The notes under the pieces: model-generated | Database searches by the model: none | Seen by the model: only the letters and a program-made list of their open reading frames with translations | Told to the model about the DNA's origin: nothing | Source of the DNA: Amphibalanus amphitrite | Taxonomy: Eukaryota > Arthropoda > Thecostraca > Balanomorpha > Balanidae | Assembly: GCF_019059575.1 (NCBI RefSeq) | Contig: NW_024881621.1 | Span: forward strand, 496,001 to 560,000 | DNA: 64,000 nt | Direction: 5' to 3' | Made by a program: the position numbers and the translations under genes | In this document: positions 9,139 through 60,754 of the stretch, piece after piece | Layout: every line of letters begins with the position of its first letter | Position numbering within the stretch: position 1 is the first letter of the stretch

Positions 9139-10142
9139 CCCGCGCACCGACGGGGGTCTGCGCCAACTTCGCACCGACGGGGGGGGGGGCGGATGACCGC
9201 CCCCCCCTGAGATCTCGAGAACGAAGCAAGATAGCGACAAGCGGTAAACGGCATCGGATACGCACGGCCAAGATCTACAATTTTTACTAAGGTCATTTTC
9301 AGGTCAGGTCAAAGATGACGTCACAGGGGTCGAAAAAGTCAAAATGGCGGCGCTAGATATGGAGAGAGTTTTTCTCGAATAACTTTCGAATTAGTCAAGA
9401 TAGGAACAAACTAAGGGCATCATCGTGATCCTCTCGTCAATCCGCATCGAATGATATATATGTTGACCTCGAAAGGTCAAGGTCAAAGGTTGACCTCAGG
9501 TCACGTGACCTCGAGGTCATCATGTATATCATTCGATGCGTCTTGACGAGCTGAACACAATGAGACCATCCACGCGTCTGTATCTTGTTCCTGTACGGAG
9601 TTATTGGCCAAAAACCTTTGGTGACCCTTGATGACGTCACATGACCTCACAGCTGCCCAACAGCAAAACAGACCTCAAGGTAGTGAAGGTTGATCGTATA
9701 TGAAGTCATGTATGGTATATGGGGCCATTCCGACCCGTTTTAGTGGTAAAAACAGGGAGTTGATTTTTCCCCCATTGACTTATAATGGGGAGGTCGCGAA
9801 ATTGACCTGACCTTAGGTCACCGATATCAAAATTCCGAGATATACAAATTGTAGCTACTAATGACCTAATAATATCCTGCGACTTTCAAAGGCCTCCGAC
9901 ATCTACTGTAGCTCTGGCACGGTGACAAAGTTGCAAAAAAGTGACTTGAGGTTGGGTCATTCAAAGTGACCTGGTGACCTGACCTTAAAAGGTAGGAGGT
10001 TCAAACTTGCACACCATGTGTAAAATTGATAAGGTTATAGTCATACCAAATTTCGCGGCGCTACGCGCCGCGGTTTTCCCGCTATTCGCGAAAAACCTCA
10101 GGGGGGGGGGCGGATATCCGCCCCCCCCCGTCGGTGCGCGGG
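9139..10142. mobile_element. TTAA-flanked non-autonomous DNA transposon (piggyBac-like target), copy E
   Basis: TTAA lies at 9135-9138 and 10143-10146. The TIR is CCCGCGCACCGACGGGGG at both ends; the left end carries a short internal duplication of GCACCGACGGGGG. Just inside each end a G-run, CGG, loop, CCG, C-run hairpin can form (about 9177-9206 and 10100-10129). The interior is quasi-palindromic around a centre (9442-9542) where CGAATGATATA and its inverse flank an array of AGGTCA half-sites, including AGGTCACGTGACCT at 9498-9511. TGACGTCA occurs in the flanking arms. No coding sequence. TTAA targets with CCC-type ends fit piggyBac; Kolobok and Sola3 also use TTAA. Confidence 0.75.
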
Positions 10143-10265
10143 TTAAAATCGTTCTGGAAGTCAGTGGGGGTTCAACTCGCAGGATTCTCACACCTCAGAC
10201 GCAAAAAAATCCTTGAGAGGACCTCAAACCGATGCTAAAAGGTGCTCTTACCAACTGAGGTCACC

Positions 10266-10365
10266 AAAGGTCTCATACTAGTCTGGGCAGACCTCGCACA
10301 GGTCTGAGAGGGCTCAAAGGTCTCATGGTAGTCTGGACAAACCTCACACAGGTCTGAGAGGGCTC
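10266..10365. repeat. tandem duplication, 50-bp unit, two copies
   Basis: Units at 10266-10315 and 10316-10365 both run from AAAGGTCTCAT to GAGAGGGCTC and differ at a few positions. The surrounding 10147-12475 is otherwise unique-looking DNA in which I see no gene. Confidence 0.6.
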
Positions 10366-12483
10366 AGTGAGTGTTCGTGCTGTGGGGATCCGCCGTGTCA
10401 CTCCTCCACCCTTCTCGGGAGCTCAAACCTTGGAATTTACCATTAATATTTAGTTAGAGCTTAGGAATTTCTCAGCACACAGCCCCTTCAATCATCCCTC
10501 AATGAAATCATCAGAGAAAACCACCATCAAGACTTCAGCATCAGCGTTCAGCGCCGACCACTGCACTGCCACCTAGCGGCGAATCCGGCCTTCACATGGG
10601 CGCCACAGTGCTGCCACCTACACCATACGGCCACCCAAAGGTCGACCTACCGCTGCGCCATCCCTGCCATCTGTCGCTGGCGATGGAGCCAGAGGACCCT
10701 GCTCCGCCGCCTTCCCTGCCATCTGGCGGTACATGTCGTAACTCCACCCTGCCAACGCTGCCAACTACCCTGACTGGCCAGACCGATACGCCACCTACGA
10801 GCTAGGTCAGACCGAACGCTCGTGGTCGTTTAGCGACTGCACTGCCCTCTGTAAGCCACAGCGCGTCAGGGACTCGGGAGTCCGGACCGTCCGCTGAAGG
10901 ATACCAGACAGTGCTGCCATCTGCACTCTGCAGCCCGGGCCGCCTGCCACGCCCGAGTCCCACCTAAAGCCAATCAGCCGTCGTCTAGAGGTCAAGTTCA
11001 CGGTAGACATTATTGATCCGTCGCCTTCAGTCCCAGCAACAGGCAGGCCGCTAACGGCCCTCAGTGATAGTGAGTTGGAGATAGCTGGCGGGCCATCCGC
11101 AGCGATACCTCCATCACGACGGTTGGTGGTCGGCACGACAGTCTCACATGATGAAAAGGGAACGATCCGCACATTCGTTCCACATCATCCGCCCAGTCCC
11201 GTGTCTGGTAGCCTCCTTTCAGGATGATATTAAGGCTATAAATTACGCTATCGACCAGCGCAGTGACCAGCGAGACAGGGGTGCCCTTTGATAGGGGCAT
11301 TTACGACGTAGCCGTGCTCCTCTAACCCCTATCATTGTTGCATATCTTCATTCAAGCGAAATGAGGCATAGGGCGGATGAGAATGATTCTCGTCAATAAG
11401 CTTGTAGTTTTGGTAAGTATTGTGAATAAGGACAGCAGACAAACGAATACAAAAAAGTAAAAGCAGTAAGCTGATAAGCGACTCAATGCACTTCAAACGG
11501 AAAACATGATGGCAGCTGCCGTGAATAAGAATACCGCACACCTAGGTCAAAAAAGAGAGCATATCGTTTCCGGTGCAGAGCGGCCACACCGACGACTTTG
11601 AGAGGTGAGCCACCATAAGCCTGGGGACCGAGTCAACAACCGGCTGTCCGGGCTCGTTCAAGAGGTACTTGACACCAACCAGCCGGCATTAATGTAACTC
11701 GGACTAGCCATGCAATGTGCCATGCACCGCCCGCGTCATAAAGGTAGAAGGCAAGTAAGGGAAAGGGCAGTGACGGCATGTTGATGGCATGCGAGGTGGG
11801 TATAACCAGCACGGCATACGTCAGATACCGCTTTACATCAGCTCCGCCCTTGGTCCTCAGAGACCGACATTAGCTCACACCGTATGTGCAGTTCGCTGGG
11901 CGCTGTCACTAAACCCTCGCCGGCTGGGACAACGTGCATATCACAAACATTGTGTGTGTGAATATCACAGTTCGGACGTGGAAGCCAGGCGACGTCAGAA
12001 CTCCAAACGACGTTAACTTCTCACAGTAGGTTTGTCACAAAGCATGTGCCCGTGGATAACTAAATAGACATATGGTAGACAGGACACATCTCCCAACCAC
12101 ATAGACAACAGAAGTAGCAGGCCCCAGCACAATGAAAATGGGAGTAGAAGCAGTTTTATTTCCAACCACGGTCCACAGCTGAGGTAGTCCCACATCGGCC
12201 ATGACCGTGTCCACTGCGGATAAGCTGAATCCATAGTCCTCTGTATAGCTCTGCGGTTTCCACTGGGCTAAGACCAGACTCATCAGCCTGAGACCGTCAT
12301 AACAACCAGTCTGAGATGTCTCAGCCTGCTGGCCTGGACAGCCTGCAGCTTTGTCCTCAGCACAGACATATCCACACATGACGCAACAGACTCAGACAGC
12401 ACAACACTGAGGCCACGGACGACAAAACATATCCATCGGACGGTGAGACACGTCAAGACTTCAAACAACACAGCACACCCAGT

Positions 12484-14224
12484 CAGTGGCGGATCCAAGG
12501 GGGGGTCACATGGGTCATGGCCCCCCCCCCTTGAGGCCCGGCGGCCCAAAGACCTGCCAGGGGCACCACCGGCCTATCAGGGGTATCACAGTCCTGACAG
12601 GGGCACCACAGGACCGCCAGGGGCACCACAGGCCTAGCAGGGACACCACGGGCCTGGTGTCCCTGGGCCCTGACAGGACTGTAACCCCCCTTACAAGCCT
12701 GAAGTGTCCCCGGCAGGCACGTGGTGCCCCTGACAGGCCTGAGGCGCCCCTGCAAGGCCGGTGGTGCCCCTGGCAGGCCTGTGGTGTCCATAGCAGGCCT
12801 GTGGTGCCCTTGCTAGGCCTCTGATGCCCCTGACAGGCTTGTAATGCCCCTGGAAGGACTGTGGTGCCCCTGGGCCCTGACAAGCCTGAGGTGCCCCTGA
12901 CAGGCCAGTGGTGCCCTTGCTAGGCCTGTGGTGCCCCTGGCAGGCCTCTGGTGCCCCTGACAGGCTTGCGGTGCCCTTGGAAGGACTGTGGTGTCCCTGG
13001 GCCCTGACAAGCCTGAGGTGCCCCTGACAGGCCCGTGGTGCCCTTGTTAGGTCTGTGGTGCCCCTGGCAGGCCTCTGGTGCCCTTGCTAGGCCGCTGGTA
13101 CCCCTGCGCCCGGAGAGGACTGGTGCCCCTGAAAAGTCTGAAGTGCCCCTCGGCAGGCCCGTGGTGCCCCTGACAGGCTCAAGGTGCCCCTGCGAGGCCG
13201 GTGGTGCCCCTGGCAGGTCTGTGGTGCCCCTGGCAGGTCTGTGGCGCCCCTGGCAGACCTGTGTTGACTGGTGCCCCTGCTAGGTCGTTGGTGCCCCTCA
13301 CAGACCTGTGGTGCCCCTGGGCCTTGACAAACCTGAGATGTCTGGCTATGACAGGCTCGTGGTGCCCCTGATAGACCAGTGGTGCCGTTGCTAGGCCTGT
13401 AGTGCCCCTGGCAGGCCTCTGGTGCCCCTGCTACCCCTGCGCCCGGAGAGGACTATGGTGCCCCTGAAAAGCCTGAAGTGCCTCTCGACAGGCCCGTGGT
13501 GCCCCTGGGCCCTGACAGGCCCAAGTTACCCCTGCGAGGTCGGTGGTGCTCCTGGCAGGCCTCTGGTGCCCCTGGCAGGTCTGTGGTGCCCCTGGCAGGC
13601 CTGTGTTGACTGGTGCCCCTGCTAGGCCGCTGGTGCCCCTCACAGGCCTGCGGTGCCCCTGGAAGGACTGTGGTGCCCCTGCCCCTAGGGGTGCTCATGG
13701 GCCCAACAGGCCCGTTGTGCCCCTGACAGGCCTGTCGTGTATACTTGCTAGACCTGTGGTGCCCCTGCTTCCTGGCAGGCCTGTGGTGCCCCTGGCGGGC
13801 CTGTGGCGCCCCTACAAGGCCGTAGGTGCCCCTGACAGGTTTGTGGTGTCCCTGGAAGGACTTTGGTGCCCCTGACAAGCCTGAAGTGTCAAGGACAGAC
13901 CCTTTAGACGCCAGGGTCAAGTTCGTCGGACTGACAACGATTTGCTTACCTGATAACGTTCCTGGTAAGTACTCACTACTCAGCGTCCACAACATATATA
14001 CACATAGCACATTCATATATACTTGCTTACAATTGGTAAATGTGGTTGTGGCTAAGAGTTAAGATACTGACTAAAAATAAAAAATAAAAAGGAAAAAAAC
14101 TGAAAATGGGGGCATCACCAAAATGAAGTGGACGAAATCCGTTGAGTTTTTTATTTTGGGTATAGGTAGGGGCACCACTTCGATTCATGACCCTCCCCTT
14201 GGAGTTTTCCTGGATCCGCCCCTG
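12484..14224. mobile_element. hAT-like element with minisatellite core, 8-bp TSD
   Basis: A perfect 8-bp duplication CACCCAGT lies at 12476-12483 and 14225-14232. The ends are CAGTGGCGGATCCA and, inverted, CAGGGGCGGATCCA (13 of 14 identical). CAG...CTG ends with an 8-bp TSD are typical of hAT elements. Nearly all of the interior is a 20-bp minisatellite; about 300 bp at the right (13920-14224) is unique. The long open frames across it, on both strands, come from the repeat and are not genes. Confidence 0.8.
12555..13890. repeat. minisatellite, about 20-bp unit, with an orientation switch
   Basis: The unit is close to GGCAGGCCTGTGGTGCCCCT, repeated dozens of times with scattered variants and occasional expanded units containing GGGCCCTGAC. 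The first about 85 bp run in the opposite orientation (GGGGCACCAC). The switch falls at a short perfect inverted repeat (GGGACACCA / TGGTGTCCC) at 12640-12663. The array lies wholly inside the hAT-like element. Confidence 0.8.
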
Positions 14225-14630
14225 CACCCAGTCCACAGTCAGCACGACACCATACCACACGCTCAGGCCACAGACAGCACAACACGCTCAGAGTTCAAAC
14301 GGAAAATCACACCCAGCCCAGACGACAATGGAAAGTGGTGGTCTGATGCGACCATACAAGGCTGACATCAGCTCCGAGAGCCGGCTTCCTAACCAGACTG
14401 ACATTCGAACCAGCCACGTTAGCGTCCACCATCGCCAGCAGGGGAATAACATAACATCTGCCTCTACTGCCAAACATCTACCGCCTTTTGATGATGCACC
14501 AGACCTGGTTGCCTGTGACTACCTGCATATCTCTGGCCCAAGGTAGTTATCATAAATCACCCTCCCCCCACCCCACTCAACCGGTACAGATCCGACTCCC
14601 CAGCCATACCGCCCGGCGCTCGGCACTCAC

Positions 14631-16134: not shown

Positions 16135-16190
16135 AGCGTCGCTACGGGGGGGCAAGCGGGGCAGCTTGCCCCCCCAACCTCCGACCGGGC
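16135..16190. mobile_element. remnant end of a hAT-like element
   Basis: GCGTCGCTACGGGGGGGC followed by a palindromic G/C tract resembles the terminal part of hAT elements with ends of the GTGGCGTAGC...GGGGGG type. No partner end or TSD is found nearby, so only a fragment remains. Confidence 0.3.
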
Positions 16191-24352: not shown

Positions 24353-25297
24353 CCCTAGAACGTCTAGGGGGGGGGGGGTTGTATCAACCCCCCCCCCTGA
24401 GGTTTTTTCGAAGTGCACGCTAAACGGCTTGTCGTAGCGGGCTGAAATTTTCAAAACCCTCTGGGGCAGCCTTTGCGCATCTTTTGCCGAAAAAAAAATT
24501 GATCGGGTCATGTCAGGTCACGGAGTTATGACGTCATAAGAGGTACAGCCTCCGGCCGACAGTTACCAAACGTGTGCGCCGAATCCCTAGGTTTTCTGCC
24601 GGTGATACCCACATTGTTTGATGGATCATGATGAAACTTCCCATGCATGTTGGGGCAAGCATTGGCTATCGTGTGGTGCAAGAAAATTGACCGGGTCAGG
24701 TCAGGTCACGGAGTTATGACGTCATAAGAGGAACAGCGTCCGGTACCATTTTTGAAAAGCGCCCGAACCACTATTTTGCTAATTCTTGTCACCTCAATGG
24801 GAATATGCAGCAATATTAGCTTCTATAAGGAGCAAATGGACCTTCCAAATCCAAAAATACAATAAGATTTCAAAAATTCAAATTTTGATTTTTCGAATTT
24901 CTGCCGCCGACTGTGACCTTGCCGACTTCCGGCGCTCCCAACGCGCCATTTTTAGAGCTAGGGAAACGAAATACATACCAAACGATAGAGAATTGATCAA
25001 GGAACACGATAGTGAAGGTTTCAAGTCGATATCTCCCACCGTTTTGCCGCAATCGCCGCGGAAAGTTGAAAAAAGTCTATTTTTCCGAAAATTTGACCTT
25101 TGACCGGTCCAAAGTAGGTCAAATGTTGACCTAGGACCAAAAAATATACCACCAATCGCGAGATCTCGTTGAGAGCAATCCGTTGGTTTTTTCCGCTAAG
25201 CTCTACGACCTTCCGTTTCGAAACGCCAGGGGGGGGGGGGTCGTAGCAACCCCCCCTGGTCGTTCGTGTTATGAGAAATGGCCTGGTCGTGCGAGGG
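24353..25297. mobile_element. TTAA-flanked non-autonomous transposon, copy A
   Basis: TTAA lies at 24349-24352 and 25298-25301. The ends are CCCTAGAACG and, inverted, CCCTCGCACG. The subterminal hairpins are G-run TTG-TAT-CAA C-run at about 24367-24398 and CCAGG...TCG-TAG-CAA...CCTGG at about 25228-25257. GGTCAGGTCA occurs twice with an almost identical 20-bp context (about 24506 and 24695). No coding sequence. The right TTAA is also the left TTAA of copy B. Confidence 0.75.
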
Positions 25298-25301
25298 TTA
25301 A

Positions 25302-26332
25302 CCCTTGCCGGACCTATTGGTTTTCTACATACGCGCCGGCCGAGGGGGGGGGGGGCGGGTACGACCCCCCCCTCGCCGTTTCGCCCCTGGTGGAGCTAGC
25401 GCGTCGCGGAAAAAACGAGCGTGTGCGCCGTTACGAGACGCAGAGATTGGTACCCGATTTTAAGGTCCTAGGTCAACCAGTGACCTCTGAGGTCAGGTCA
25501 AGTGACCCAGGGTACGGTTCAGTTTTTGGTGAATAACTTCGCAAAAAACGGCCGCAGAGCCGCGATTTTGGCAGCATCGTGTTCGCCTTGCTCAGGCGCG
25601 TCGAATGATATACTTTTTGTTCGGGTCAGGTCAACTTAGGGTGTTGACCTCAGGTCAAGGTCAGGTCAGCACCCCCAGGTCACGAAGTTGGTCGAAAGAG
25701 GTCATGCTGCATATCATTCGATTCGGCAGGTCTTCCTGAGTCCATTGGTGGCTTTCCCGACTCGCTAGCTCAATTTGATCGGGAGTTATTGACGAAAAAC
25801 TAATATGACATTGATGACGTCATAAATGACGTCACGGAAGGTAAACATTGCAAAAGTGACGCATCTAACCTTGCAAGGAGTGCATCAAATCACGATTCTG
25901 TGTGCTTGATATAGTTGGAGATCGCTCCCGGCGCCAGAATAGCAGTTTGAATTTTTCCCCATTGACTTATAATGGTGAGGTCACGAAAATGACCTGACCT
26001 CATATGACCTTTAGGAAAAATCCGAGATATACAAGTTGTGAGACTCATAATGGATACTAGATCCTGAAAGTTTCATTTCCCTGTGACATCTCCTCTGGCA
26101 GTGAGGGCGTTGCGAAGTTGCGACATCTGAAGACCGTGCAGAGGTTCACTTATGACGTCATAGGTCAGTGACCTGACCTGACCCAAAAATGCGGTTGGTG
26201 TCAAAAGATGCGGCTTGGATCAAAGGTCAGGTATGCCAAGTTTCAGCTCTCTATCGCCAGCGTGTTCGGAGCTATCGCGAAAAAACCCTATGGGGGGGGG
26301 CGGCACCCGCCCCCCCCCTCGGCCGGCGAGGG
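25302..26332. mobile_element. TTAA-flanked non-autonomous transposon, copy B
   Basis: TTAA lies at 25298-25301 (shared with copy A) and 26333-26336. The ends are CCCTTGCCGG and, inverted, CCCTCGCCGG. The right hairpin is G-run CGG-CAC-CCG C-run at about 26292-26318; the left one is outwardly paired CGAGGGG/CCCCTCG at about 25342-25374. The centre (about 25600-25735) has CGAATGATAT and its inverse flanking an AGGTCA-rich array containing TCAAGGTCA. Two TGACGTCA palindromes lie at 25814 and 25827. It is most similar to copy C (55914-57299) and to the core of the 3007-4901 element (reverse orientation). Confidence 0.8.
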
Positions 26333-27855: not shown

Positions 27856-30800
27856 ATGATTAGCGACCGGGTCGCGCCCCCCGCCGTGACCGACGGCGGC
27901 GGGGAGGCGCAAGGTGGTCGCCCGGGTAACCGCCATCGCCGTCGAGCCCGCAACCGCAGATACCGTCGCAACTGCGCCAGGAGAAGTCTCCTCACCGTCA
28001 TGGTATGGAACGCGGAGGGCCTCCGCCCGAAGATCGCGGAGCTAACCCCCTGGCTTTCCGAGACGCAAGTCGACGTCATCGCGATACAAGAGGGCCAATT
28101 CCCTAAGACGGCTCCAAGGATACCCGGCTTCCAACCCCCGGTCGTAACACGCCGCACAAGAGGCAGAAGAAACGACGGCCCCGTGAAAGGAGGAGACGTC
28201 GCAATGTACGTCCGCGACAGTCGCAACTTCACGGTCCTGGACGGCCCCTTCAAGCCCGGTGTGGACGACACCACCGAGATATGTGGCGTGCGCATCCTGG
28301 GACCCCTCGAACTCGACCTCATCAACATCTACCGCCCGCCCATCCGCCCAGATGAGTCGGATGAGAGACAAGACCTGTTCGACCCGACCCACCTGCCCAG
28401 CGGCGACAGCACCATCGTCGCCGGAGACTTCAATGCCCACCACCCGCTGTGGGACGCGGACTGCGACGAAGCGGACGAAGTCGGCGAGAGGATAGCGACC
28501 TGGCTAGACTCTATCGGCTGGACGACCCTCAACGACGGCCGACCGACGTTTACCAGTTACCGCTCCGGGGGCCAGACAGCACCGGATGCGGCGTTCTGCA
28601 GCCCGTCCCTAGCGCGGCGGACCAAGTGGAGCATTGGCCCCGACCTGGGCAGCGACCATCTCCCGATGCTCCTGGAGATCCGGATCGGCGGTGCGCCTCC
28701 GAAGATGATCCGGAAGACCCGCTGGTCGTTCAAGAAGGCGGACTGGCTGGCGTTCCAGGAGGAGTGCGAGGCTGCCTTTGCGGAGGCGGGCCCGGAGCAC
28801 GAATCCGTTCAGGAACTGGCCACCAGATTCCACCAAGCGCTGGAAGAAGCAAGCGTGCGTCACATCCCTCGGGGAGCACGCAACCAGCCACGACCATGGG
28901 CCCTGGATCCAGAGCTGAAGGTGGCGGTCGACGCCAGACGCGCGGCGCGGCGGGACCTGAGAAGCGGGGACCGTTCGGCCAAGGAACGCTGGGTGGAGGC
29001 AAAACGCAGAGCAGCATCTGTGGAACGACGTGTCTCCCAGAGACAGTTCAGAGAATATGTCTCCACCACCCTCAACAAACATCAGAGCCTCGGCCGCGTC
29101 CACAAGACGTTGAAGATGTGGGAGGGTGCTTCCGACGACCAGCACAGAGCCGCTGAGTCGATGGAAGATGGCGACCGGACGCTCGTGTCGGACCGGGACA
29201 AGGCGAACGCATTCAACCGCACCTATGCGACCGTATCGAAGCAGGTGCGGGACCGGAAGGTGGACCGCGACACCAAAACCAGACTGAAGGCGTCCAACGT
29301 CAAGACGTGCCATGAGTGCTGGGGGCGGAAGTCCGGCTACTGCTCACCGTTCTCCGAGGAGGAACTGACGCGACAGATCTCGCAGGCGCAACTCAAGAAG
29401 TCGCCAGGCCCAGACGACCTGTGTAATGAGCACATCAAGCACCTGGGCCCGAGAGCGCGCGAAGTCCTCCTTCACCTCATCAATAGCTCGTGGCAGTCCG
29501 GCGTGGTCCCGCGGGAATGGCGGCGCGCTGTTATAGTGCCCATTCCCAAGGTGGGAAAGGACCCAAGGAAGATCGCGAGCTACCGGCCCATCGCGCTGAC
29601 GTCCCACGTAGCCAAGCTGGCCGAGCGGGTGATCGCGACCCGTCTGTCACACCTCGCCGCCGAACGCAACATGATCCCACCTGAACAAGTCGGATTCCGC
29701 GAGAAGCGGGGCGTCGAGGATGTCGTCGCCCGGCTAACTCAGCAGGTCCAAGATGGATGGCAGCTCAAGCCGTGCCCGCCATCAAGACGTCAAGTCCCGG
29801 ACGGAGAAGCAGCCCAGAAGTATGTCCTTGTGGCATACGACTTCTCCCGCGCATACGACCGGGTCGACCACCGTCTTCTGAGGGCGCGTCTTGCAGAGTT
29901 GGGAATCCCGGCCTGCTACAACACCTGGGTGTGGGCATTTCTTCGAGACCGGAGGGCCTGTGTCGAAGTCAACGGCACGAAGAGTGGCGAGCGCGTGTAC
30001 AGGGCGGGCCTGCCGCAAGGCAGTGTCCTCTCTCCGACCCTGTTTCTGTTATGGTCGGCGCCGCTCGTAGCAACGCTCAAGACCCTGCCCGGCACAACCC
30101 CATTCATGTTCGCCGATGACACCTCGACGCTCTGCGCCGGCAACTCCATCGCCGTGGCCCGGGACCGGGCGCAGCTGGCGGCCAACACGCTCGTGAAGTG
30201 GGCCCGCCGGAGTAAGATGGAGGTCGCGGGTCAGAAGACGCAGCTGCTCGTCCTCTCCCAGAACCCCCGAGACGCCGTCGACTGTCACATCCACGTGGCG
30301 GGTCAACGGGTGGAAGGGGGACCTGAGCTGAAACTTCTGGGAGTGACGCTAGACAGGACGCTGAGCTTCGGCCCGCACTGCAGAAGTCTCCGTCGGCGCG
30401 TCCGGCCCCGAGCGGCCCAACTCCGACGTCTCACCGGCCGCAGCTGGGGGCTGCAAGAACAGCAGCTGCGCGCCGTCGCAAACGGCTACGTGCGCGGCGC
30501 GATAGAGCACGCGGCTGCTGCCTGGCTGCCGGCAGTGTCCAAGTCCAACATCGAGATCCTGGAGCGGGAGATGCGCGCCGTGGCGAGGATCGTCACGGGC
30601 TGCATACACTCCGCACCACACCACGGTGTGACGGCCGAGGCTGGCATGCTGCCTGTCGCGGCACGACGTACTGCGCTAGCGGCGCGTATGTTCGCGAAGG
30701 CTGCCGCGCTCCCGCCAGAGGACCCCCTCCGAGCGGTCGCCATGGCTGACCCCCCTCAGCGCCTCAAGCTGGTCACGGGGTGGCGCCAAGTAGGCCGGGA

Positions 30801-31887
30801 GGCCCTGCGGGAGCTACGGGTCGAGCTGCCGGTTGAGGCCCTGCTACCAGAGCGACCGCCACCGTGGACGCCCACCGGCAAGATCACCTTCAACCTGAGC
30901 ATTGGCGCGCTGCCCGCCGGTGCGGCGAGGTCCACGAAGAGAGACGCAGCGCTCCATCACCTGGCGTCCATGACGCAGTGCGCGACGTGGGCGTGGACCG
31001 ACGGCTCGTCGAGCGGCGGGATCCTCCGCGGGGGGGCTGGCGCCCTCATCGTCGGAGCTGATGATAGCCGCACCGAGCTCCGTGTCCCAGCGGGCACACT
31101 CTGCTCCAGCTTTCGGGCGGAGATGGTCGCCCTGCAGGTGACGCTGGACCACATCCTGGAACACCAGCGGGACGCACCAGAACCAGTCATTATATGTACC
31201 GACTCGCTGTCGGCGATAGCGGCGCTGAGAGAGGGTCCGTCGGCACAGCGCTCGGCCAGAGGCGCTGCCATATGGAAGCAGCTACTGGAGCTCACCGCCG
31301 GAGACCGAACGGTCACCCTCCAGTGGGTTCCATCCCACTGCGGGATCCCAGAGAACGAGTCCGCCGACGCCCTGGCAAACGAGGCTGCGACGCTGGCACA
31401 AGAAGACGTCATGCTCGATGTAGACACCATCTACCGAGCGGCAGTCCGCACCGCCAGAGACCGCGCCGCAAGGGACAGGCCGACATACCCGGACCCCGAC
31501 CGCAAAGCCGCAACGGGGTGGTACAGAGAGCTTATGGGTGCAAGATGGCCACCACCTCTCACCAACATGGACAGGACGACAGCAGTAGACGTCCACCAGA
31601 TCCGCACTGGGCGCTGGAGCGGCTCGGCGCAGTTTCTCCATTCCATCGGACGAAACCCATCTGCGGACTGCCCACAGTGCAGGAACCTCGACTGCCCTGC
31701 AGCTCGTTGCCCGCTGTGCGGCGAGCAAGCCGACACACCTCGACACATCCTGCTGACCTGCCCGGGACTGATGGGGGTTCGCCTCAGAATCCCGGCGGTC
31801 GGCAACATACTGCCGACGGTGGAGGAGGTCAGGCGCGGCGACACGGTGGCGGCCCTGGTGGCCGCCTTCAGGGCCCTCCAGAGCTGA
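27856..31887 (+). CDS. LINE polyprotein: endonuclease, reverse transcriptase, RNase H
   Basis: 1343 aa. Target-primed reverse transcription: the APE-type endonuclease nicks DNA and the RT copies the element RNA there. After a basic N-terminus (RRRARNRRYRRN), endonuclease spans about residues 46-277 with N52 (VWNAEG), E79 (IQEG), D191/N193 (GDFNAHH) and SDH at 266-268. RT runs from about 499 to 800: KKSPGPDDL, SYRPIAL, YDFSRAYDRVDH, GLPQGSVLSP and the catalytic FADD at 752-755. RNase H has D1049 (WTDGS), E1089 (FRAEM), D1116 (TDSL), H1161 (VPSHCG) and D1171 (ESADAL). A Cys/His region from residue 1272 ends in CPLCGEQADTPRHILLTC (C-x2-C-x8-H-x4-C). All expected catalytic residues are present. 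The start is the first ATG in frame, directly after an in-frame TGA; Met49 begins the endonuclease core and is an alternative. There is no separate ORF1. Confidence 0.92.
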   Translation: MISDRVAPPAVTDGGGEAQGGRPGNRHRRRARNRRYRRNCARRSLLTVMVWNAEGLRPKIAELTPWLSETQVDVIAIQEGQFPKTAPRIPGFQPPVVTRRTRGRRNDGPVKGGDVAMYVRDSRNFTVLDGPFKPGVDDTTEICGVRILGPLELDLINIYRPPIRPDESDERQDLFDPTHLPSGDSTIVAGDFNAHHPLWDADCDEADEVGERIATWLDSIGWTTLNDGRPTFTSYRSGGQTAPDAAFCSPSLARRTKWSIGPDLGSDHLPMLLEIRIGGAPPKMIRKTRWSFKKADWLAFQEECEAAFAEAGPEHESVQELATRFHQALEEASVRHIPRGARNQPRPWALDPELKVAVDARRAARRDLRSGDRSAKERWVEAKRRAASVERRVSQRQFREYVSTTLNKHQSLGRVHKTLKMWEGASDDQHRAAESMEDGDRTLVSDRDKANAFNRTYATVSKQVRDRKVDRDTKTRLKASNVKTCHECWGRKSGYCSPFSEEELTRQISQAQLKKSPGPDDLCNEHIKHLGPRAREVLLHLINSSWQSGVVPREWRRAVIVPIPKVGKDPRKIASYRPIALTSHVAKLAERVIATRLSHLAAERNMIPPEQVGFREKRGVEDVVARLTQQVQDGWQLKPCPPSRRQVPDGEAAQKYVLVAYDFSRAYDRVDHRLLRARLAELGIPACYNTWVWAFLRDRRACVEVNGTKSGERVYRAGLPQGSVLSPTLFLLWSAPLVATLKTLPGTTPFMFADDTSTLCAGNSIAVARDRAQLAANTLVKWARRSKMEVAGQKTQLLVLSQNPRDAVDCHIHVAGQRVEGGPELKLLGVTLDRTLSFGPHCRSLRRRVRPRAAQLRRLTGRSWGLQEQQLRAVANGYVRGAIEHAAAAWLPAVSKSNIEILEREMRAVARIVTGCIHSAPHHGVTAEAGMLPVAARRTALAARMFAKAAALPPEDPLRAVAMADPPQRLKLVTGWRQVGREALRELRVELPVEALLPERPPPWTPTGKITFNLSIGALPAGAARSTKRDAALHHLASMTQCATWAWTDGSSSGGILRGGAGALIVGADDSRTELRVPAGTLCSSFRAEMVALQVTLDHILEHQRDAPEPVIICTDSLSAIAALREGPSAQRSARGAAIWKQLLELTAGDRTVTLQWVPSHCGIPENESADALANEAATLAQEDVMLDVDTIYRAAVRTARDRAARDRPTYPDPDRKAATGWYRELMGARWPPPLTNMDRTTAVDVHQIRTGRWSGSAQFLHSIGRNPSADCPQCRNLDCPAARCPLCGEQADTPRHILLTCPGLMGVRLRIPAVGNILPTVEEVRRGDTVAALVAAFRALQS

Positions 31888-34423: not shown

Positions 34424-35257
34424 CAGGGGTCGGCAAATGGTGGGGCATACCCCCTTTGGGGGTAATGGAGCCCTTTCGGTGGGGGTAATGAGGGATTCTG
34501 AGAAAGCCTATCTTTTTAGAGTTTGTAGCTCCAGTGATGGAGCCATCGTGACTGTTGCATCCCAAGGTTCAAAGATTAGCCCAGGCCAAAGGCACAGCAC
34601 ACATTGATTAGATATCAATTTTCATGTACCTGCTCGCCTCACCATCTCACCCCTCCGTACAGTCGTACAAAAGCAGCTGCAACTTTTAACCGTCGCCCGT
34701 CTGTTGGCGTTTCAACAGCCGCTAACGTAAGGGGGAGGAGTCGATCGGACCCCCGCGGCCTCTTGGACTCTGAGATGGAGCTGTGCATAAAAAAGACGAG
34801 CGTGCTACCCGTGACAATAGGAAGCCGCTGCTGCCCATTTTTAAGGTCCTTGGTCATTCCGTCTCATTCAAGAGGGCAATGACAAGTGTCGAGAAAATCG
34901 GGACCCGCTATAACTTCTTGAAGTGAGATTTTATGGCTCAAGATGATCTCCAGAAAAAGCTCATAAGCCAACGGTCATTATGGGTCCAGAGGCCACTTTC
35001 ACCAACAGAAAAATAGCCGCCTGCCGGAATTTTTTGCCTAAAGATCGTTTCACATATGGAGCGTAAACGGTAAAGCCCTATCCGCTTACGAGCCCATCGC
35101 GTTTACATCGCGATACACAAACACCCAAAGAGTTCCAGGACGGTATGGAATTTCAGTAAACTTGGTTGTGTCAGCAATGGGGTCTGGTAGGTGGGGGTAA
35201 TGGCCCTGCCTGGCGCCCAAAAAGGGGGCACGACCCCGAATGACCTGCCGACCACTG
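34424..35257. mobile_element. hAT-like non-autonomous element, 8-bp TSD
   Basis: The perfect 8-bp duplication CCGTAGAG lies at 34416-34423 and 35258-35265. The left end CAGGGGTCGGCAAAT is the common hAT-type terminus; the right end, inverted, is CAGTGGTCGGCAGGT. Subterminal GGGGGTAATGG occurs at both ends in inverse orientation relative to the element. No transposase. Confidence 0.85.
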
Positions 35258-39766: not shown

Positions 39767-41540
39767 TCTCCAGACGCGTATTTGGAAATTCCGACCTCGA
39801 CGAGCGTCTGTGGTAGAAAACCACCACTTTGGTAGGGGAAACTACTACTGTCTGCTACCGTTTGCACTGTATGTCTCGCTGTAGTTGCGACCGATTGTGA
39901 CATCTATGCAAGTCAGCAGGGTACGTACCTTAGCGATATACGTACTTTATAATTTACGTACTTTTTCGATGCGTATTTTCTTCTTTGACGTACACTACTT
40001 TTGTCTATAGTTCGTTTTTCTTAAGTTTGCCCCTCACTGTAAACGTCTTTTTGAACACAGCACGAGAATTGCTAGCTGAATTACTGAGAAAACTGGTTGG
40101 CGCACAATGATTTGACCAGATTTGACAGACGATCAATTTCATCAAATTTATTTACTATTTCACAGACTCGTAGCTCGTATTTGCTAATACCTACAGCCCA
40201 CGGACGTATAAATAAACTGGACTGACAATCCCAATGGACCTCCTATGGAAGATAGTGAAGCCGACAAGGCGCCATTTTACGTTGCCAAAAAACCGTGCTC
40301 TGGAAGGTCATCGAGCCAATACAATTAGAATTGCGTCCAAACGGATGATCGGATCGAGATGCTGGTGGTACCGTTCGACGGGTAATTCCTTGAGGCAGGT
40401 GATGATGGATGTCACATGTCACCCGGTGTCACATGGCGCGTGCCACGTGCCGACAAACTTACAAAGGGCAAAAACCTTTAAGCGACGCTTCAAATCAAAC
40501 GAAGGGCGGCACAGGTGCCAAACTCATAGGTCACATGTCCCAGTGTTGGACCACTAACATATGGTATGCTCGGCATCAGGGGGTGCGGAACGCACGCGCT
40601 AGTGGCGAAAAACATGTTTTGAGGAGGCATCCTCCGATTCCGGAAAACCTTGATCTAGGCACACCAAATTTGGCACACTGACACTACTGGACACGCGCTT
40701 TAAGGTGCTGTACAAATAGGCGTGCTGGGGTACACGGTGCACGTGCTGTGCACGTGCAAACCTTTTGATGTTGCACTCCAGGTGTCACATATGCGGGTAG
40801 GGCGGGTAGCGCTGGCAAGCTCAAAGTGCCGAATTTACACAGGCCACTCAGAACGCATTCCAGAATAGTTATTGAGCATATTCATCTCCTGGTGGCCCCC
40901 AAAGGTGCGCTCTGCAAGTGCAAAAAATTATCCGCGCCGGGCGGTGGGGATGCTTGGACACCCCATGTGGATTTATGTAAATATCTCGAAAACGGCGCTG
41001 TGTAGCGCCGCCGTTGTTGGCACACCCTTTCATACATCTTTTTCACACATGCTGCGTAACTTTCAGACTTAGGTCACTCAAGGTTAGGTCACCAGGTTAC
41101 GTCCAAGTGGCCTTACCTTAGGAAAAATTATAATGCCCGTCATAGCTACACATACTATATGTACAATCGACTTAAAACGTGCAGCAATTGAGAAGATCAA
41201 CAGTATATACGTAGAGTACCTACCTCTACCTCGAAATTTCAATATCACTGACCTAGGGTTCTGTTGATTTTGCGACCTCAGACCACTAGCACGGCAAATC
41301 ATTTATTTTGTCAAATTCGAGCTCCTAAACTTCTTGCTACCCAGCAACGCAAATTTACGCCTCAATCGCCGGCCAGCGCAGCATAGGCATCTTTGTTATC
41401 TACGTTGTTTGCGCCTACAGTAATACTGTACCGCAATAACCATTATCTTCATCTTTCACCCATAGATGGCAGTAGCAAAGCGCCTGCATCTATGCTGTGC
41501 CGCAGTGCTCTTACAATACGAGCTGAGCAATGAGCATTAA

Positions 41541-42417
41541 CCCTCGCCCGTATAGGGGGGGGGGGGGTCGAACGGACCCCCCCATGGTTTTTCGCGAATA
41601 ACTCGCGTAAAAAGCGGCCGATCGCGACGAAACTTTCAGTACCCTCGCGTTTATCAATTTTACACCTACCCTGAAAATTTCATGACCCTAACCCAAATGA
41701 CCTTTGACCTGTGACCTACTTTTCGAGACCATGTTTGGCCGGAATCGCGATTCGGCGTATGTCGGCTCGCATTAGCCGCGCATTTGCAGTCTTTTCGTGG
41801 TTTCAAGCGTTCAAACATGTGATATGATGTTGCCCCCATGCATTAGGGTGGGTGTCAAGGTCACCTGAAGGTCAGGTCAGGTCATTGACCTTTGATGACC
41901 TCGGTTCACTTTTTCGAGTTTTACATGTTTCTAGGCCAGTTTTTGGAGCTGAATTCGAATTTAGCAACCATATGAACATTTACGAAGTAGTTTTGGTGCC
42001 TTCGTAACATGTTACGATGCTGTCAGAGGCGGTTGCCACCTACTACGAATACCCTTACTGGTTGACCTGACCTGACCTGACCCGACCTGGCCTAAATGCA
42101 TGAAGACATCATCTGTGATCAAAAGTAACATGATATTCGTGATCAGCACCCCGAAAAACCTCATAGCAGCCACACTTTACGACGTTCTAACAGGTCCCGA
42201 TTTTCCCGACTTTTGGGTCATTGACCTGACCTGCAAGGTCAACCAATGACCTAGGACCTTAAAATTGGGTATCATCGGCTTCCTCTCGTCACGGGCAACA
42301 CGCTCGTTTTTTCCGCGAAGCTCTAGCTCGATCAGGGGCGAAACGGCAAGGGGGGGGGGTCCAACGGACCCCCCCCTTATACGTTCGCGGCTGGAAAAAC
42401 ACCAATACGGGCGAGGG
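41541..42417. mobile_element. TTAA-flanked non-autonomous transposon, copy D
   Basis: TTAA lies at 41537-41540 and 42418-42421. The TIR CCCTCGCCCGTAT is identical at both ends (13 bp). Subterminal hairpins: G-run TCG-AAC-GGA C-run (about 41554-41583) and G-run TCC-AAC-GGA C-run (about 42350-42378). GGTCAGGTCAGGTCA arrays lie mid-element. Its insertion separates the two arms of the giant foldback. Confidence 0.85.
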
Positions 42418-42442
42418 TTAAACAAGCAAGTGATATTGAAAT

Positions 42443-42605
42443 CATAGGCGGCGGAACGAGGGGGGCACCGGGGCACCGTGCTCCCCTTGAATTTGGCAAT
42501 TTAACATAGCCCTTTCCATGCAACGCCCATAGGGCGTTGCATGGAAAGAATGGGACCAAAAGTCGGCAGTGCCCCCCTTTAATTGAAGGTGTTCCGCCGC
42601 CACTG
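42443..42605. mobile_element. 163-bp hAT-like MITE, 8-bp TSD
   Basis: The perfect duplication ATTGAAAT lies at 42435-42442 and 42606-42613. The ends are CATAGGCGGCGGAAC and, inverted, CAGTGGCGGCGGAAC. The centre is a hairpin (GCAACGCCC/GGGCGTTGC), so the whole element is nearly palindromic. Confidence 0.85.
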
Positions 42606-43896
42606 ATTGAAATTCCGATGCAGAGGTACTCTACGTATATGCTGTTGCTCTTATCAATCGCTGCACGTTTTAAACCGATTATTCAGTCTGTGTACTATAT
42701 GACGGGCACTATAACTTTTCCTATGGTAAGGTCACTTGGACGTAACCTGATGACGTAACCTTGAGTGACCTAAGTCTGAAAGTTACGCAGCATGTGTGAA
42801 AAAGATGTATGAAAGGGTGTGCCAAAAACGGCGGCGCTACACAACGCCGTTTTCGAGATATTTACATAAATCCACATGGGGTGTCCAAGCATCCCCACCG
42901 CCCGGCGCGGATAATTTTTTGCACTTGCAGAGCGCACCTTTGGGGGCCACCAGGAGATGGATATGCTCAATAACTATGCTGGAATGCGTTCTGGGTGGCC
43001 TGTGTAAATTTGGCACTTTGAGCTTGCCAGCGCTACCCGCCCTACCCGCATATGTGACACCTGGAGTGCAACATCAAAAGGTTTGCACGTGCACAGCACG
43101 TGCACCGTGTACCCCAGCACGCCTATTTGTACAGCAGCTTAAAGCGCGTGTCCAGTAGTGTCAGTGTGCCAAATTTGGTGTGCCTAGGTCAAGGTTTTCC
43201 GGAATCGGAGGATGCCTCCTCAAAACATGTTTTTCGCCACAAGCGCGTGCATTCCGCACCCCCTGATGCCGAGCATACCATATGTTAGTGGTCCAACACT
43301 GGGACATGTGACCTATGAGTTTGGCACCTGTGCCGCCCTTCGTTTGATTTGAAGCGTCGCTTAAAGGTTTTTGCCCTTTGTAAGTTTGTCAGCACGTGGC
43401 ACGCGCCATGTAACACCGGGTGACATGTGACATCCATCATCACCTGCCTCAAGGAATTACCCGTCGAACGGTACCACCAGCATCTCGATCCGATCATCCG
43501 TTTGGATGCAATTCTAATTGTATTGGCTCGATGACCTCCCAGAGCACGGTTTTTTGGCAACGTAAAATGGCGCCTTGTCGGCTTCACCTGAATGGAGGTG
43601 GTTGCGGGTCCAGTTTATTTATACGTCCGTGCTACAGCCCCACAGGGATGGACGACTTCTCAGGAATTATGTCTGAACTAATAAATAAATTGCACGGCGC
43701 TTAACATAACGTTAAATCGTCGGTGTTCAAAACTTATTTTGAAAATATTATTCATATCTATAATACAATGTGCGCCAACCAGTGTTTCTCAGTAATTCAG
43801 CTAGCAATTCTCGTGCTGTGTTCAAAAAGACGTTTACAGTGAGGGGCAAACTTAAGAAAAACGAACTATAGGTATACGTACTTTGTACTGTACGTA

Positions 43897-55855: not shown

Positions 55856-55909
55856 CTTATCAGAGGCCGGTGTGGGACTTTTAGACGGTCTGGGCCTTCA
55901 GAGGCCAGT
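55856..55909. repeat. left part of the 30-bp minisatellite
   Basis: TCAGAGGCCGGTGTGGGAC and CTTCAGAGGCCAGT units, continuous in type with 57304 onward once the TTAA element between them is removed. Confidence 0.65.
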
Positions 55910-55913
55910 TTAA

Positions 55914-57299
55914 CCCTCCACGGCCCGGTCCTATAGGTTTTCTACATACGCGCTGGCCGAGGGGGCGGGGGGCGGGTACGACCCCCCTCGCCGTTTCGCC
56001 CCAGGTGGAGCTAGCGCGTCGCGGTAAAACGAGCGTGTGCGCCGTTACGAGACGCAGAGATCGATACCCGATTTTAAGGTCCTAGGTCAACCGGTGACCT
56101 CTGACACCGTTCCGTGCTTCTATCCTCAGGATACTGAAATCCTTCTCCTCCACACCGCAACCCCCTCCGGGCTGGACAGGCAACTTTATCTCATGCGGGC
56201 TGCTCCCTTGGAGCAGCACCGCTGCTCCCGAGGGAGCGCACCCCGTAGCCGGGTGCAGTGAGTGCCTTGGGGCTGGGTGGCCTGTCCTCTGGACGGGCTC
56301 AGCCCCGGCGACTCACTAGGGTGCCTGCCCAGACCAATGTCTCCCCCTATATCCTATCATCCTTCCGGCTCTGAAATGGTCTCATTGGACCGAAAGGGCC
56401 TAACCCAACAAAACAAACAAATACCGGTGACCTCTGAGGTCAGGTCAAGTGCCTCAAGGCACGGTTCCGTTTTTGGTGAATAACTTCGCAAAAAATAGCC
56501 GCAGAGCCGCGATTTTACCAGCATCGTGTTCGCCTCTCTCAGGCGCGTCGAATCATATACTTTTTGTTTGGGTGAGGTAAACTTAGGGTGTTGACCTCGG
56601 GTCACGGTCAGGTCGGCGTCCCCAGGTCACGAAATTGGTCGAAGGAGGTCATGTCGCATATCATTCGATTCGGCAGGTCTTCTTGAGTCCATAGGTGGCT
56701 TTCCCGACTCGCTAGCTCAATTTGATCGGTACCTAGTTATTGACGAAAAACTAATAAGACCCTTATAACTTCATAAATGACGTCGCGCAAGGTCAACATT
56801 GCAAAAGTGACGCATCGAACCTTGCAAGGAGTGCATGAAATCACGATTCGGTGTGCTTGAGATAGTTGGAGATCGATCGTTCCCGGCGCCAGAAAAAGTT
56901 TTCAGTTTATCCCCATTGACTTATACCTAATGGTGAGGTCACGAAAATGACCTGACCTCATATGAACTTTAGGAAAAATCCGAGATATACATTATACAAG
57001 TTGAGAGACTCCTATTGGATACTAGGTCCTCCAAGGTTCATTTCCCTGTGAAATCTCCTCTGGCAGTGAGGGCGTTGCGAAGTTGCGACATCTGAAGACC
57101 GTGCAGAGGTTCACTTATGACCACATGGGTCAGTGACCTGATCTGACCCGAAAATGCGGTTGGTGTCAAAAGATCCCGCTTGATTCAAAGGTCAGGTATG
57201 CCAAGCTTCAGCTCTCTATCGCCGGCGTGTTCGGAGCTATCGCGAAAAAAAACCTATGGAGGGGCGGCACCCGCCCCCCCCCCCCCCAGCCGGCGAGGG
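55914..57299. mobile_element. TTAA-flanked non-autonomous transposon, copy C
   Basis: TTAA lies at 55910-55913 and 57300-57303. Ends CCCTCCACGGCC and, inverted, CCCTCGCCGGCT. It is a sister of copy B, with the same hairpins, the CGAATCATATA/ATATCATTCGA centre and AGGTCA array. It is inserted in the minisatellite and carries a retroposed insert (56105-56422). Confidence 0.75.
56105..56422 (+). mobile_element. retroposed insert (SINE or 5'-truncated LINE), 15-bp TSD
   Basis: The perfect 15-bp duplication ACCGGTGACCTCTGA lies at 56090-56104 and 56423-56437. The 318-bp insert is absent from sister copy B. It ends in an A-rich tail (CCAACAAAACAAACAAAT), the hallmark of LINE-mediated insertion. 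No Pol III A/B boxes or tRNA-like head are evident, so a 5'-truncated LINE 3' end is slightly favoured over a SINE. It differs from the 3' end of the LINE at 27557-31934. Confidence 0.75.
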
Positions 57300-57303
57300 T
57301 TAA

Positions 57304-58262: not shown

Positions 58263-58289
58263 TAATAGCTAGCGTGGGATTCTTGAGTC

Positions 58290-58434
58290 TCGTGACAACC
58301 GAATAAGGGCCAGAGCCCCATACGCCCATGGGGGCCCATTGGTTGTTTGGGGGGGCCAAATGATATGATGGCCCCCTGATTAGCCTTTGGAGGGAAAGGG
58401 CATGGCCCTGATCCCCCCTCTGCGACCGCCACTG
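58290..58434. mobile_element. hAT-like end remnant
   Basis: Inverted end GTGCAGTGGCGGTCGCAGAG with G/C tracts, ending near 58434. No partner end found. Confidence 0.3.
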
Positions 58435-58988
58435 CACTGAAAGTGGAAGGGGGAGGGGCAGAAACAGACATTGCTGGCCCCCAGCCTGTTTGAACCGAGG
58501 CTGAGGCACGGTCACCCTGGCCCCCAGCTAGTACGCCTTTGACGAACTATGCCGACCCCAAGCAGATAAGGTCAAGCGTTGGTCGTTTGTATACGCATTC
58601 TCCTGCACCGTGCTAGTATTGTCTTAGTATTGCCTATACCTTTTCAGTGCTCGCTGTCCCGCGCCTCGTATTCAACAAAATGCTGTCACCAGGACTCATA
58701 GTCTTGTCTCTTATATGGTTTCCTTCATTGAGTGAAGGAAATTGCGGTCAATAACGCTGTAGAAACAAAAAGGAATCTTCATTAAAGGGCAAGCTGAATA
58801 GTTGTCAAGTTACCGGGTGGTAGGTTAGGTACAGACAGACACTTAAGTCAGCAAAAAGTGGGGGGGGGCCAGTTAACATTGCTGGCCCCCCCACCTCCGA
58901 AAGTGGGGGGGCCATGGCCCCCCCGGCCCCCCCCCCTGTTCCTACGCCTATGTCTCAACTCAAATCTAATGTTAGGGTGGGAGGGTCC

Positions 58989-59839
58989 GCATTTCCATTC
59001 AACAGCTAACAAGTTAACACAAATCATGATCAAAGAGTAATGTGTGTCCATGAATCAAATTTCTTGAAACAACCATTAACCATCTCATTGCTTGAAACTA
59101 TAACTATCTGATAAGCTAGGTCCAACAGTCACACCGGTGAGAGAGTATGGGAATCTGGAAATATATCCCTCTCCCCCTCCCAGATAATCATACATGCATC
59201 CACTGCTGTACTGAGCCAATGGATTACTGACTACTGAGTCATAGCTTATCAAATTTTGAAGAGTTGTTACACAAAAATAGGTCCCAACACGTTCAGGATA
59301 AATTGCATGCCAATTTTTGTCAGCTTAATCTTAAACTCAATTGCATAAAGATGAGAAAATATATTAATCTATTTCCATATTTTTCTTCTAATCTATTTTT
59401 TCTAGACCTCAATTGAGATCTTATCATGTGGTGGTTGCAAGTTTTGATTAGAGTGAACACACAAGTAGACATCCTGATATGGGGATGATCATACAGTAAC
59501 TTAGGTGCAGAGGCACCCTGACTCCACAAGTGTGCAGTGGAGACTGGATTGTAGATTTCCAGTAGTGAGCTGTGGAATGTAAGTGGAGCTGGAGCAGTGC
59601 TGGCCTTCATTCAGTGGCACTGTGGCACTGAGATGAACTGCTGTGCTTGCACTGATGGCACAGCATCAGCATTGTCTGAAAAATGATGCATGGGAGACAC
59701 AATGGGGTCGACCAGGGTCCAGGGAAAGATAGATCAACTTCAACTTCTTATTTTCCGTGTGGTTTCGGCCAATCAAAAGAGCAAAAGTACTTAACGTTCT
59801 TAAGCAAAAGTTGGTTCTAACTTCTAACTCTTCTTCCAC
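58989..59839. other. no supported gene
   Basis: AT-rich unique-looking DNA between the nest and the last TTAA element. No repeats or exons. Confidence 0.4.
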
Positions 59840-59843
59840 TTAA

Positions 59844-60754
59844 CCCTCGCCCGCACATGGGGGGGGGTTGCCACCCCCCCCCCCCAGGCAGTCTTTCTGC
59901 TCTGCACTCAACATTTTTAGAGCTAGAAGGCTGATTTTTCGTATAGCTGCTCGTCTATCCTTTCTTGATGTCCACTGAAAATTTCAAGTTTCTGTGATTT
60001 TCGGTTTCGGAGATATGACCTTGTTTTTCAGGTCATGTCATGACCCAAATGGCCAATTCTCAACATCTTGCGTTTGCCATGGGCCTTGTGAGCTTTTGAC
60101 ACCCTGATTTCGGCCTTTTTTGCCAGTCTTACCTCCCATCTATCATGGAACATGTTGTTCGACGATGTACAGGGGTCAAGGTCAGGGTCAAGGTCAACCT
60201 AGGTCATCTAAGATAATTGCGTTTTAGGCAAGCTGAATTTACTTTTTGTGAAGTTTTTTGACTGCATTTTTGGTAAAAGCTTCTCAGATCATGATTTCAT
60301 GTGATATTGACCCAAAAACAATCGGTGCACACATCAGTATACACACAGACACACACAAACATACAAACACATATAATTGACCTTGACCTAACTTGACCTG
60401 AAATGACCTCAGCAGCAAAATTCTGGTCGGATAGTGTGACAAAGAGGTTCTAGCTGGCTTGGCACCAGAAAACAGCATCGTCATCGGTATTTGATAAGCA
60501 GCGCACTTGATATCCAACGGTGACCCAAAACAGCAACATTTTTTAGTTTGACCTGACCTGGAAGGTCAATGACTGACCTGAGAAGGTAAAACTGGGTATC
60601 ATTGGATTCGTCTCTTCCCAAAGAATCTTTTTGGTCTTTACTGCTAAGCTCTATCTCCAACGACCAACAGGAACGAAATGGCGCGGGGGGGTGGCAACCA
60701 CCCCCCCCCCCCATGTGCGTTCTAGGATGGGAAAATGGCATGTGCGGGCGAGGG
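59844..60754. mobile_element. TTAA-flanked non-autonomous transposon, copy F
   Basis: TTAA lies at 59840-59843 and 60755-60758. The 16-bp TIR CCCTCGCCCGCACATG is exact at both ends. Right hairpin G-run TGG-CAA-CCA C-run (about 60685-60712); the left is G-run TTGCCA C-run (about 59859-59884). A CA-rich stretch lies at 60330-60375. AGGTCA and GGTCAAGGTCAACC arrays mid-element. TIR similarity (CCCTCGCCCG) groups it with copy D. Confidence 0.85.

Follow-up and report, generated by a model that had tools for sequence, protein, structure and literature searches.

Which transposons are inserted at TTAA in the 64-kb window (the whole stretch of DNA analysed here), and why do the inverted repeats just inside their ends differ in sequence from copy to copy while tending to stay complementary? 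A preliminary description had attributed such compensatory change to selection for a folded form, in a family without a described counterpart; its observations are partly confirmed and its interpretation is partly supported by the present analysis. The six intact elements and a decayed seventh copy are very probably non-autonomous (MITE-like) piggyBac members, with a palindrome that would be read by a transposase dimer. Published systems are cited by PMC number.

Elements identified in the window

The intact elements are 877-1386 bp long. The strand of each element was set by its orientation, short end first, and palindrome remnants are listed along with the elements.

4407-4423 (+): long-end palindrome remnant, GGGG TCG TAT CAA CCCC, inside the 3007-4901 element
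5456-5474 (+): long-end palindrome remnant, GGGG TCG TAC CGA CCCCCC, inside the 1653-5950 element; no tip
9139-10142 (-): element A; palindromes at the long end (left) 9179-9207 and the short end (right) 10101-10129; TTAA at 9135-9138 and 10143-10146
24353-25297 (+): element B; palindromes at the short end (left) 24367-24397 and the long end (right) 25229-25256
25302-26332 (-): element C; palindromes at the long end (left) 25344-25372 and the short end (right) 26292-26318
34690-34925 (-): element G, decayed seventh copy, only the long end found; tip CCGT next to TTAA 34686-34689; decayed palindrome 34731-34754
41541-42417 (+): element D; palindromes at the short end (left) 41555-41583 and the long end (right) 42350-42376
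55914-57299 (-): element E; palindromes at the long end (left) 55961-55987 and the short end (right) 57261-57287
59844-60754 (+): element F; palindromes at the short end (left) 59859-59885 and the long end (right) 60685-60712

The six elements with TTAA targets and CCC ends reported earlier are borne out, TTAA being present on both sides of all six (and at the one end found of decayed G) and CCC at the start of all 12 intact ends, and a TTAA family of cut-and-paste-like elements is supported. The CC[C/T]T tip of the piggyBac superfamily (PMC2872659) is found at 10 of the 12 ends, each of them CCCT; the exceptions are both ends of A (CCCG), and the tip of decayed G is CCGT. The adjoining elements B and C have one TTAA (25298-25301) in common. 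Elements C and E are close relatives (89-93% over two main aligned parts), E carrying extra internal sequence, and G was detected by nhmmer (E 3.6e-6) and by blastn, matching element D at 71% over 249 nt.

Organisation of the ends

Each of the six intact elements has one short and one long end. The tip motif of the short end is followed directly by the palindrome, the G-run of which starts at nt 13-16 in all six; at the long end the tip motif is followed by a spacer of about 13-21 nt, a second copy of the inner tip motif and then the palindrome, with the G-run starting at nt 41-43 in five elements and at nt 48 in E, which carries an insertion there. The inner motif is repeated at an offset of 26-28 bp in five of the six elements: 27 in A (14 nt exact), B (9 nt exact) and F (8 nt exact), 26 in D (5 nt exact, 6/10) and 28 in C (6/10 nt). 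No clear 27-bp repeat is seen in E, where lags 28 and 32 tie, and none remains in decayed G, where the best motif match is 4/10 at several lags. Over six of the seven long ends, with E left out as a close copy of C and G kept, a lag of 27+-1 gives 43/60 identities, a value reached at any lag by none of 5000 shuffles of nt 16-46 (shuffle maximum 37). The piggyBac right end, in what we take to be its sequence, also repeats the inner motif at lag 27. The lengths of its right and left ends, and the location of TGACGTACG at bp 23-31, match PMC7351741.

The layout is thus that of piggyBac (IFP2) of Trichoplusia ni, which likewise has a TTAA target, a CCCT tip and one short and one long end (PMC7351741), with a palindromic subterminal repeat at both ends and the inner motif again 27 bp inward at the long end. 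This asymmetric layout with a duplicated motif is a trait of T. ni piggyBac and is not universal, piggyBat having a different one (PMC11707139). The asymmetry of short and long ends and the decayed long end at 34690-34925 were absent from the preliminary description.

Coding capacity and searches for a transposase

No stop-to-stop frame that overlaps the six elements exceeds 149 aa, the length of one lying partly outside E, and a tblastn search of the 64-kb window with a piggyBac transposase, the kind of autonomous relative sought for this family, gave nothing at E<=1, a difference from piggyBac itself. By frame lengths and tblastn, the elements keep their ends without coding capacity, as do non-autonomous MITEs. 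Pfam searches of nine chosen open frames of the window, a set outside which the element-overlapping frames lie, had a retrotransposon frame as their sole match.

The DNA patterns of the ends had 0 matches in viral contigs, in which a single piggyBac transposase protein also had no match. An alignment of two transposase proteins gave 56 pattern stretches in viral contigs and 110 in bacterial/archaeal contigs, 0 of them confirmed by tblastn; both sets are poor places to seek piggyBac relatives.

Because TTAA lies on both sides, the tips are CCC, no long reading frame is present and the ends have the asymmetric piggyBac layout, the elements are most likely non-autonomous members of the piggyBac superfamily. 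Ownership of these ends by another TTAA superfamily, Kolobok or Sola3, is highly improbable. Sola3 also makes TTAA duplications. So does Kolobok, but its termini are 5'-RR and YY-3' (PMC9587614), whereas all 12 ends here begin with CCC, and the end layout is that of piggyBac.

Palindrome sequence and pairing of the inner bases

An inverted repeat of G-run, inner bases and C-run lies just inside all 12 intact ends, as had been described, the weakest being at the long end of E (stem score 5); a palindrome at both ends is again as in T. ni piggyBac. The palindrome stands at a fixed place and is more than a G-tract. All five inner pairs named earlier are present: TTG/CAA at the short end of B, CGG/CCG at both ends of A and the short ends of C and E, TCC/GGA at the long end of D, TGG/CCA at the long end of F and TCG/CGA in the remnant inside the 1653-5950 element. 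Perfect triplets are found at only 7 of the 12 intact ends, or 8 of 15 counting three remnants, which makes imperfect ends more frequent than the "few ends" first conceded. The imperfect palindromes are those at the long ends of B, C and E and the short ends of D and F; the earlier list lacked the long end of E and, if its copies are lettered in the order given, included the left end of B and the right end of A, which are in fact perfect; another lettering of the copies fits it better. In the register used there, one of three positions is paired at the long ends of C and E, while folding of the C long end prefers another register with one mismatch (E lay outside the folding set).

The proposed test of covariation against a shuffled null was run on the ends in the window by permuting 3' triplets between ends. 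It used 14 of the 15 known ends; the short end of F was excluded because only a single base pair separates its G- and C-runs. Complementary positions are in excess (34/42 against a permutation mean of 22.8, P=0.0003), as are perfect ends (8 against 3.3, P=0.004), and the excess persists without E (30/36 against 19.8, P=0.00035). With one end per family, P ranges from 0.00025 to 0.07 (median 0.009, 16 choices); for short ends alone (4) P=0.08, for long ends alone (8, with remnants) P=0.025 and for intact long ends alone (5) P=0.07. Differing triplets thus stay complementary more often than under permutation, but many ends depart from this, 8 of 15 being perfect.

In elements A-D the arms are more alike between the two ends of one element (0.67-1.0) than between elements (mean 0.40), which is weak support for the piggyBac-type explanation because an equally good value is given by 2 of the 24 label permutations, of which one is the observed labelling. 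For whole cores the between-element mean is 0.37, a value lowered because the 10-nt core of A was set ungapped against 9-nt cores.

Explanations of the covariation

In DNA inverted repeats, paired changes alone are no proof of selection for a folded form. Such selection, with the palindrome acting as an extruded hairpin or cruciform that is read by shape, and complementarity conserved in place of sequence, is improbable. It agrees with the excess of paired triplet changes over shuffles and with stable single-stranded stems (-11.2 to -18.2 kcal/mol; 10 of the 12 ends folded, E omitted), five of which are outdone or equalled by none of 200 shuffles; for each of the other five, however, between one and 52 of the 200 shuffles are as stable, and the long end of B folds with its triplets unpaired. 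Hairpin or cruciform binding has been suggested for PGBD5, but B-form probes gave no shift in PMC12324416, extruded probes being outside that assay, and a repeat in this position is known to serve as a duplex site for the cysteine-rich-domain (CRD) dimer (PMC7351741). Folded-form selection does not follow from the data, because a symmetric double-stranded site and homogenisation by template switching (PMC8604942) covary alike; covariation alone does not discriminate between dimer binding, hairpin recognition and template-switch homogenisation.

The last of these, in which polymerase template switching copies arm onto arm and leaves complementary triplets without selection, is possible though unlikely as the explanation, and it may act alongside dimer binding. 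The arms of inverted repeats are homogenised, and their spacers inverted, by template switching between them (PMC8604942), which is also reported to be able to create and maintain hairpins (PMC8794818). Outside the family, 4 of 7 G5+/C5+ pairs have at least three complementary inner bases, compared with 6 of 13 family rows (one flush-arm criterion; two of the 13 rows are the same E palindrome), but the outside hairpins may come from another repeat family. One end of D has the loop AAC and the other has GTT, as expected from spacer inversion, and the core identity between its ends is 0.89 inverted against 0.56 direct; the case comes solely from D, however, with B agreeing weakly and C and E pointing the opposite way. 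Homogenisation also leaves unexplained the end layout and the fixed place of the palindrome at both ends of every copy.

The palindrome appears to occupy the place of the dimer-bound site of piggyBac, the observation being real and, on this analysis, mostly ordinary; its role as a transposase signal is probably correct. Under the piggyBac-type explanation, a transposase of that type would be encoded elsewhere in the host genome, its core domains binding the inner tip motif and its C-terminal zinc-binding domain, as a dimer, the double-stranded palindrome. It would synapse one short with one long end, and excision would proceed via hairpinned TTAA tips, followed by reinsertion at another TTAA. 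The palindrome halves would covary because a symmetric dimer reads both half-sites, and the paired changes may originate in template switching from one G/C-run arm to the other. A more elaborate scenario is improbable: a piggyBac lineage would have split into subfamilies within one genome, tip motif and dimer palindrome switching specificity jointly, with arm homogenisation and spacer inversion of the G/C-run arms keeping the symmetry. The transposase would recognise the shape of an extruded or strongly bent palindrome, and new half-sites would thereby remain usable during the switch.

Comparison with known elements

The earlier statement that no described family has this feature does not hold, since palindromes are already known in piggyBac (PMC7351741) and piggyBat (PMC11707139), and subterminal or inner inverted repeats, with hairpins suggested, in other piggyBac-like elements (PMC12324416). 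In piggyBac each end has a 19-bp palindromic internal repeat, the palindrome lying at bp 17-33 in the left end, and a dimer of the transposase cysteine-rich domain recognises this repeat as double-stranded DNA (PMC7351741); its arms are unlike those here, which are G/C homopolymers plus a triplet varying among copies. In the piggyBat element of Myotis lucifugus, too, paired C-terminal domains bind a subterminal palindrome, whose sequence is unrelated to that of piggyBac, but its palindromes are on the left end only and in another layout (PMC11707139). CsuPLE1.1 of Chilo suppressalis shares TTAA, 13-bp tips and 25-bp subterminal inverted repeats in asymmetric positions, and differs in coding for a 505-aa transposase (PMC4273485).

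Coral CMITEs (PMC2872659) and Daphnia mPok (PMC3849761) are likewise non-autonomous piggyBac-derived MITEs at TTAA with tip sequences that vary among families within one genome, and CMITEs also occur as tandem copies; CMITEs are about 100 bp and mPok about 750 bp long, shorter than the elements here. The string "palindrom" is absent from the main text of both papers. Human MER75, MER85 and Looper are alike by description, being piggyBac-like, and it has been proposed that their subterminal or inner inverted repeats fold into hairpins or cruciforms (PMC12324416). A literature search, in which subscription papers were sparsely covered, found no description of this exact family.

The mechanism is already known, and what is new is further elements of a known kind. 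Together, the repeat offset and the palindrome may be a diagnostic mark of piggyBac elements that lack genes, and copies that keep the layout while the palindrome changes are a natural experiment on change in the DNA specificity of a transposase dimer.

Nested elements and palindrome remnants

The "related composites" at 3007-4901 and 1653-5950 do carry internal remnants of the TTAA-family long end, but they are one transposon nested in another of the same separate kind, with 26-bp ends (GGGGCATTCCACGATAGATCGTACCA) different from those of the TTAA family. The remnant at 4407-4423 has no tip, and its blastn similarity to element C stops within the palindrome.

The TTAA elements and their ends

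The window (64,000 nt), whose repeats and retrotransposon give it a eukaryotic character, holds six intact elements (A to F), each flanked by TTAA on both sides and carrying a CCC tip at both ends, as the preliminary description had proposed, positions included. B and C adjoin and share the TTAA at 25298-25301, E closely matches C, and patches of common sequence occur at and between the ends of the elements. In all six, one end is short, with a palindrome (G-run, triplet, short loop, triplet, C-run) directly after the tip, while the other is long, in the order tip, spacer, a repeat of the inner tip motif and palindrome.

TTAA elements and the offset (bp) of the repeated motif in the long end
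9139-10142, element A: 27, 14 nt exact
24353-25297, element B: 27, 9 nt exact
25302-26332, element C: 28
41541-42417, element D: 26
55914-57299, element E: ambiguous
59844-60754, element F: 27, 8 nt exact
34690-34925, long end of G, a decayed seventh copy: no offset seen

At a lag of 27±1, identity is 43/60 over six of the seven long ends (E excluded), a value reached at any lag by none of 5000 shuffles (maximum 37).

Two nested transposons of one kind (3007-4901 within 1653-5950) had been described as related composites. Each has a C-like interior stretch and together they contribute two palindrome remnants, but they are not members of the TTAA family. Both have identical 26-bp inverted ends of their own (GGGGCATTCCACGATAGATCGTACCA); on the long-end side, blastn similarity to C stops inside the palindrome, short of a tip, in both. 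AACT stands on either side of the inner copy, and the outer one has AACA and TACA at its flanks.

Comparison with piggyBac and piggyBat

A 27-bp lag is also found in the right end of T. ni piggyBac, in what we take to be its sequence. TGACGTACG occupies bp 23-31 of this presumed right end, in agreement with the relevant part of PMC7351741, which reports that 35 bp of the left end and 63 bp of the right suffice, and that what sets the right end apart is an insertion of 17 bp together with a duplicated segment. The palindromes of the window elements occupy the position of the palindromic 19-bp repeats of piggyBac, which lie 3 nt and 31 nt in from the tips (PMC12324416). The window elements are most likely non-autonomous members of the piggyBac superfamily. 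Among shortened ends tested in cells, excision and integration of native piggyBac needed a left/right pair (PMC7351741), and a similar need may explain why all six copies keep one short and one long end.

In structures, a dimer of the transposase cysteine-rich domain binds the piggyBac repeat at one of the two ends in duplex form, with a kink of about 40 degrees in the DNA (PMC7351741). The piggyBat domain is described as not structurally homologous to that of piggyBac and the palindrome that it binds as unrelated in sequence (PMC11707139); symmetric palindromes of differing sequence were thus already known among piggyBac relatives, and the suggestion that no described family has this feature is not supported.

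Complementarity of the inner triplets

The earlier observation is real, but its exceptions were under-reported, since in the register originally used the triplets pair perfectly in only 7 of 12 intact ends, or 8 of 15 with the three remnants (G and the two above). Over 14 ends (F's short end excluded), 34 of 42 positions pair, against a mean of 22.8 when the 3' triplets are permuted among ends (P=0.0003); without E, the values are 30/36 and P=0.00035. Ends from the same element are not independent in these counts; with one end per family, P ranges from 0.00025 to 0.07 (median 0.009). Subsets gave P=0.08 (four short ends), 0.025 (eight long ends) and 0.07 (five intact long ends). The excess of paired triplets looks real, though few independent families underlie it. 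Pairing is looser at the long ends, where an inner-side CGA is common to B, C, E and the two remnants of the nested transposons, whereas the outer side reads TTG, CGG or TCG, so that at several long ends only one half has changed.

Possible sources of paired changes

Covariation does not discriminate between mechanisms, because paired changes arise whether a dimer binds a symmetric site in duplex DNA, the hairpin itself is selected or template switching homogenises the inverted-repeat arms. Selection of the folded form, as first proposed, is possible but not favoured. A hairpin has been suggested in print for piggyBac-like elements (PMC12324416), and ten ends folded as single-stranded DNA gave -11.2 to -18.2 kcal/mol, five of them surpassing all 200 shuffles and the others matched by 1, 2, 3, 4 and 52 (the last being F's short end); in B's long end the triplets are unpaired in the fold. 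For template switching, spacer inversion is no more than a lead from a single element: the loop of D reads AAC at its one end but GTT at the opposite end, the pattern expected after such an inversion. In yeast, spacer inversions occurred only where arms exceeded 9 bp (PMC8604942); those of D have 9 and 11 pairs.

A control scan sought G5+ runs followed within 30 nt by C5+ runs, and asked whether at least 3 bases immediately inside the runs were complementary. They were in 6 of 13 rows belonging to the TTAA family and in 4 of 7 pairs elsewhere (listed below), so on this criterion the family shows no higher frequency of complementarity.

Hairpins with complementary inner stems away from TTAA-element ends
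16146-16175, G-run/C-run hairpin
58349-58376, G-run/C-run hairpin
58860-58892, G-run/C-run hairpin
58905-58924, G-run/C-run hairpin

Two of the four precede CCCCCCCAACCTCCGA or CCCCCCCACCTCCGA, and these hairpins perhaps therefore belong to another repeat family.

Other features

The six elements, 6154 nt in all, contain 87 copies of AGGTCA/TGACCT, the nuclear-receptor half-site, where base composition predicts about 3; the rest of the window apart from 1653-5950 (53,548 nt) contains 65. D lies inside the 1553-nt loop of an inverted repeat (40255-43587) with 890-nt arms, 98% complementary. A 1343-aa open frame at 27856-31887 has endonuclease, reverse transcriptase and RNase H domains, which point to a non-LTR-type retrotransposon. 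Two repeat arrays with 20-bp spacing lie at 12655-13891 and 63435-63822.
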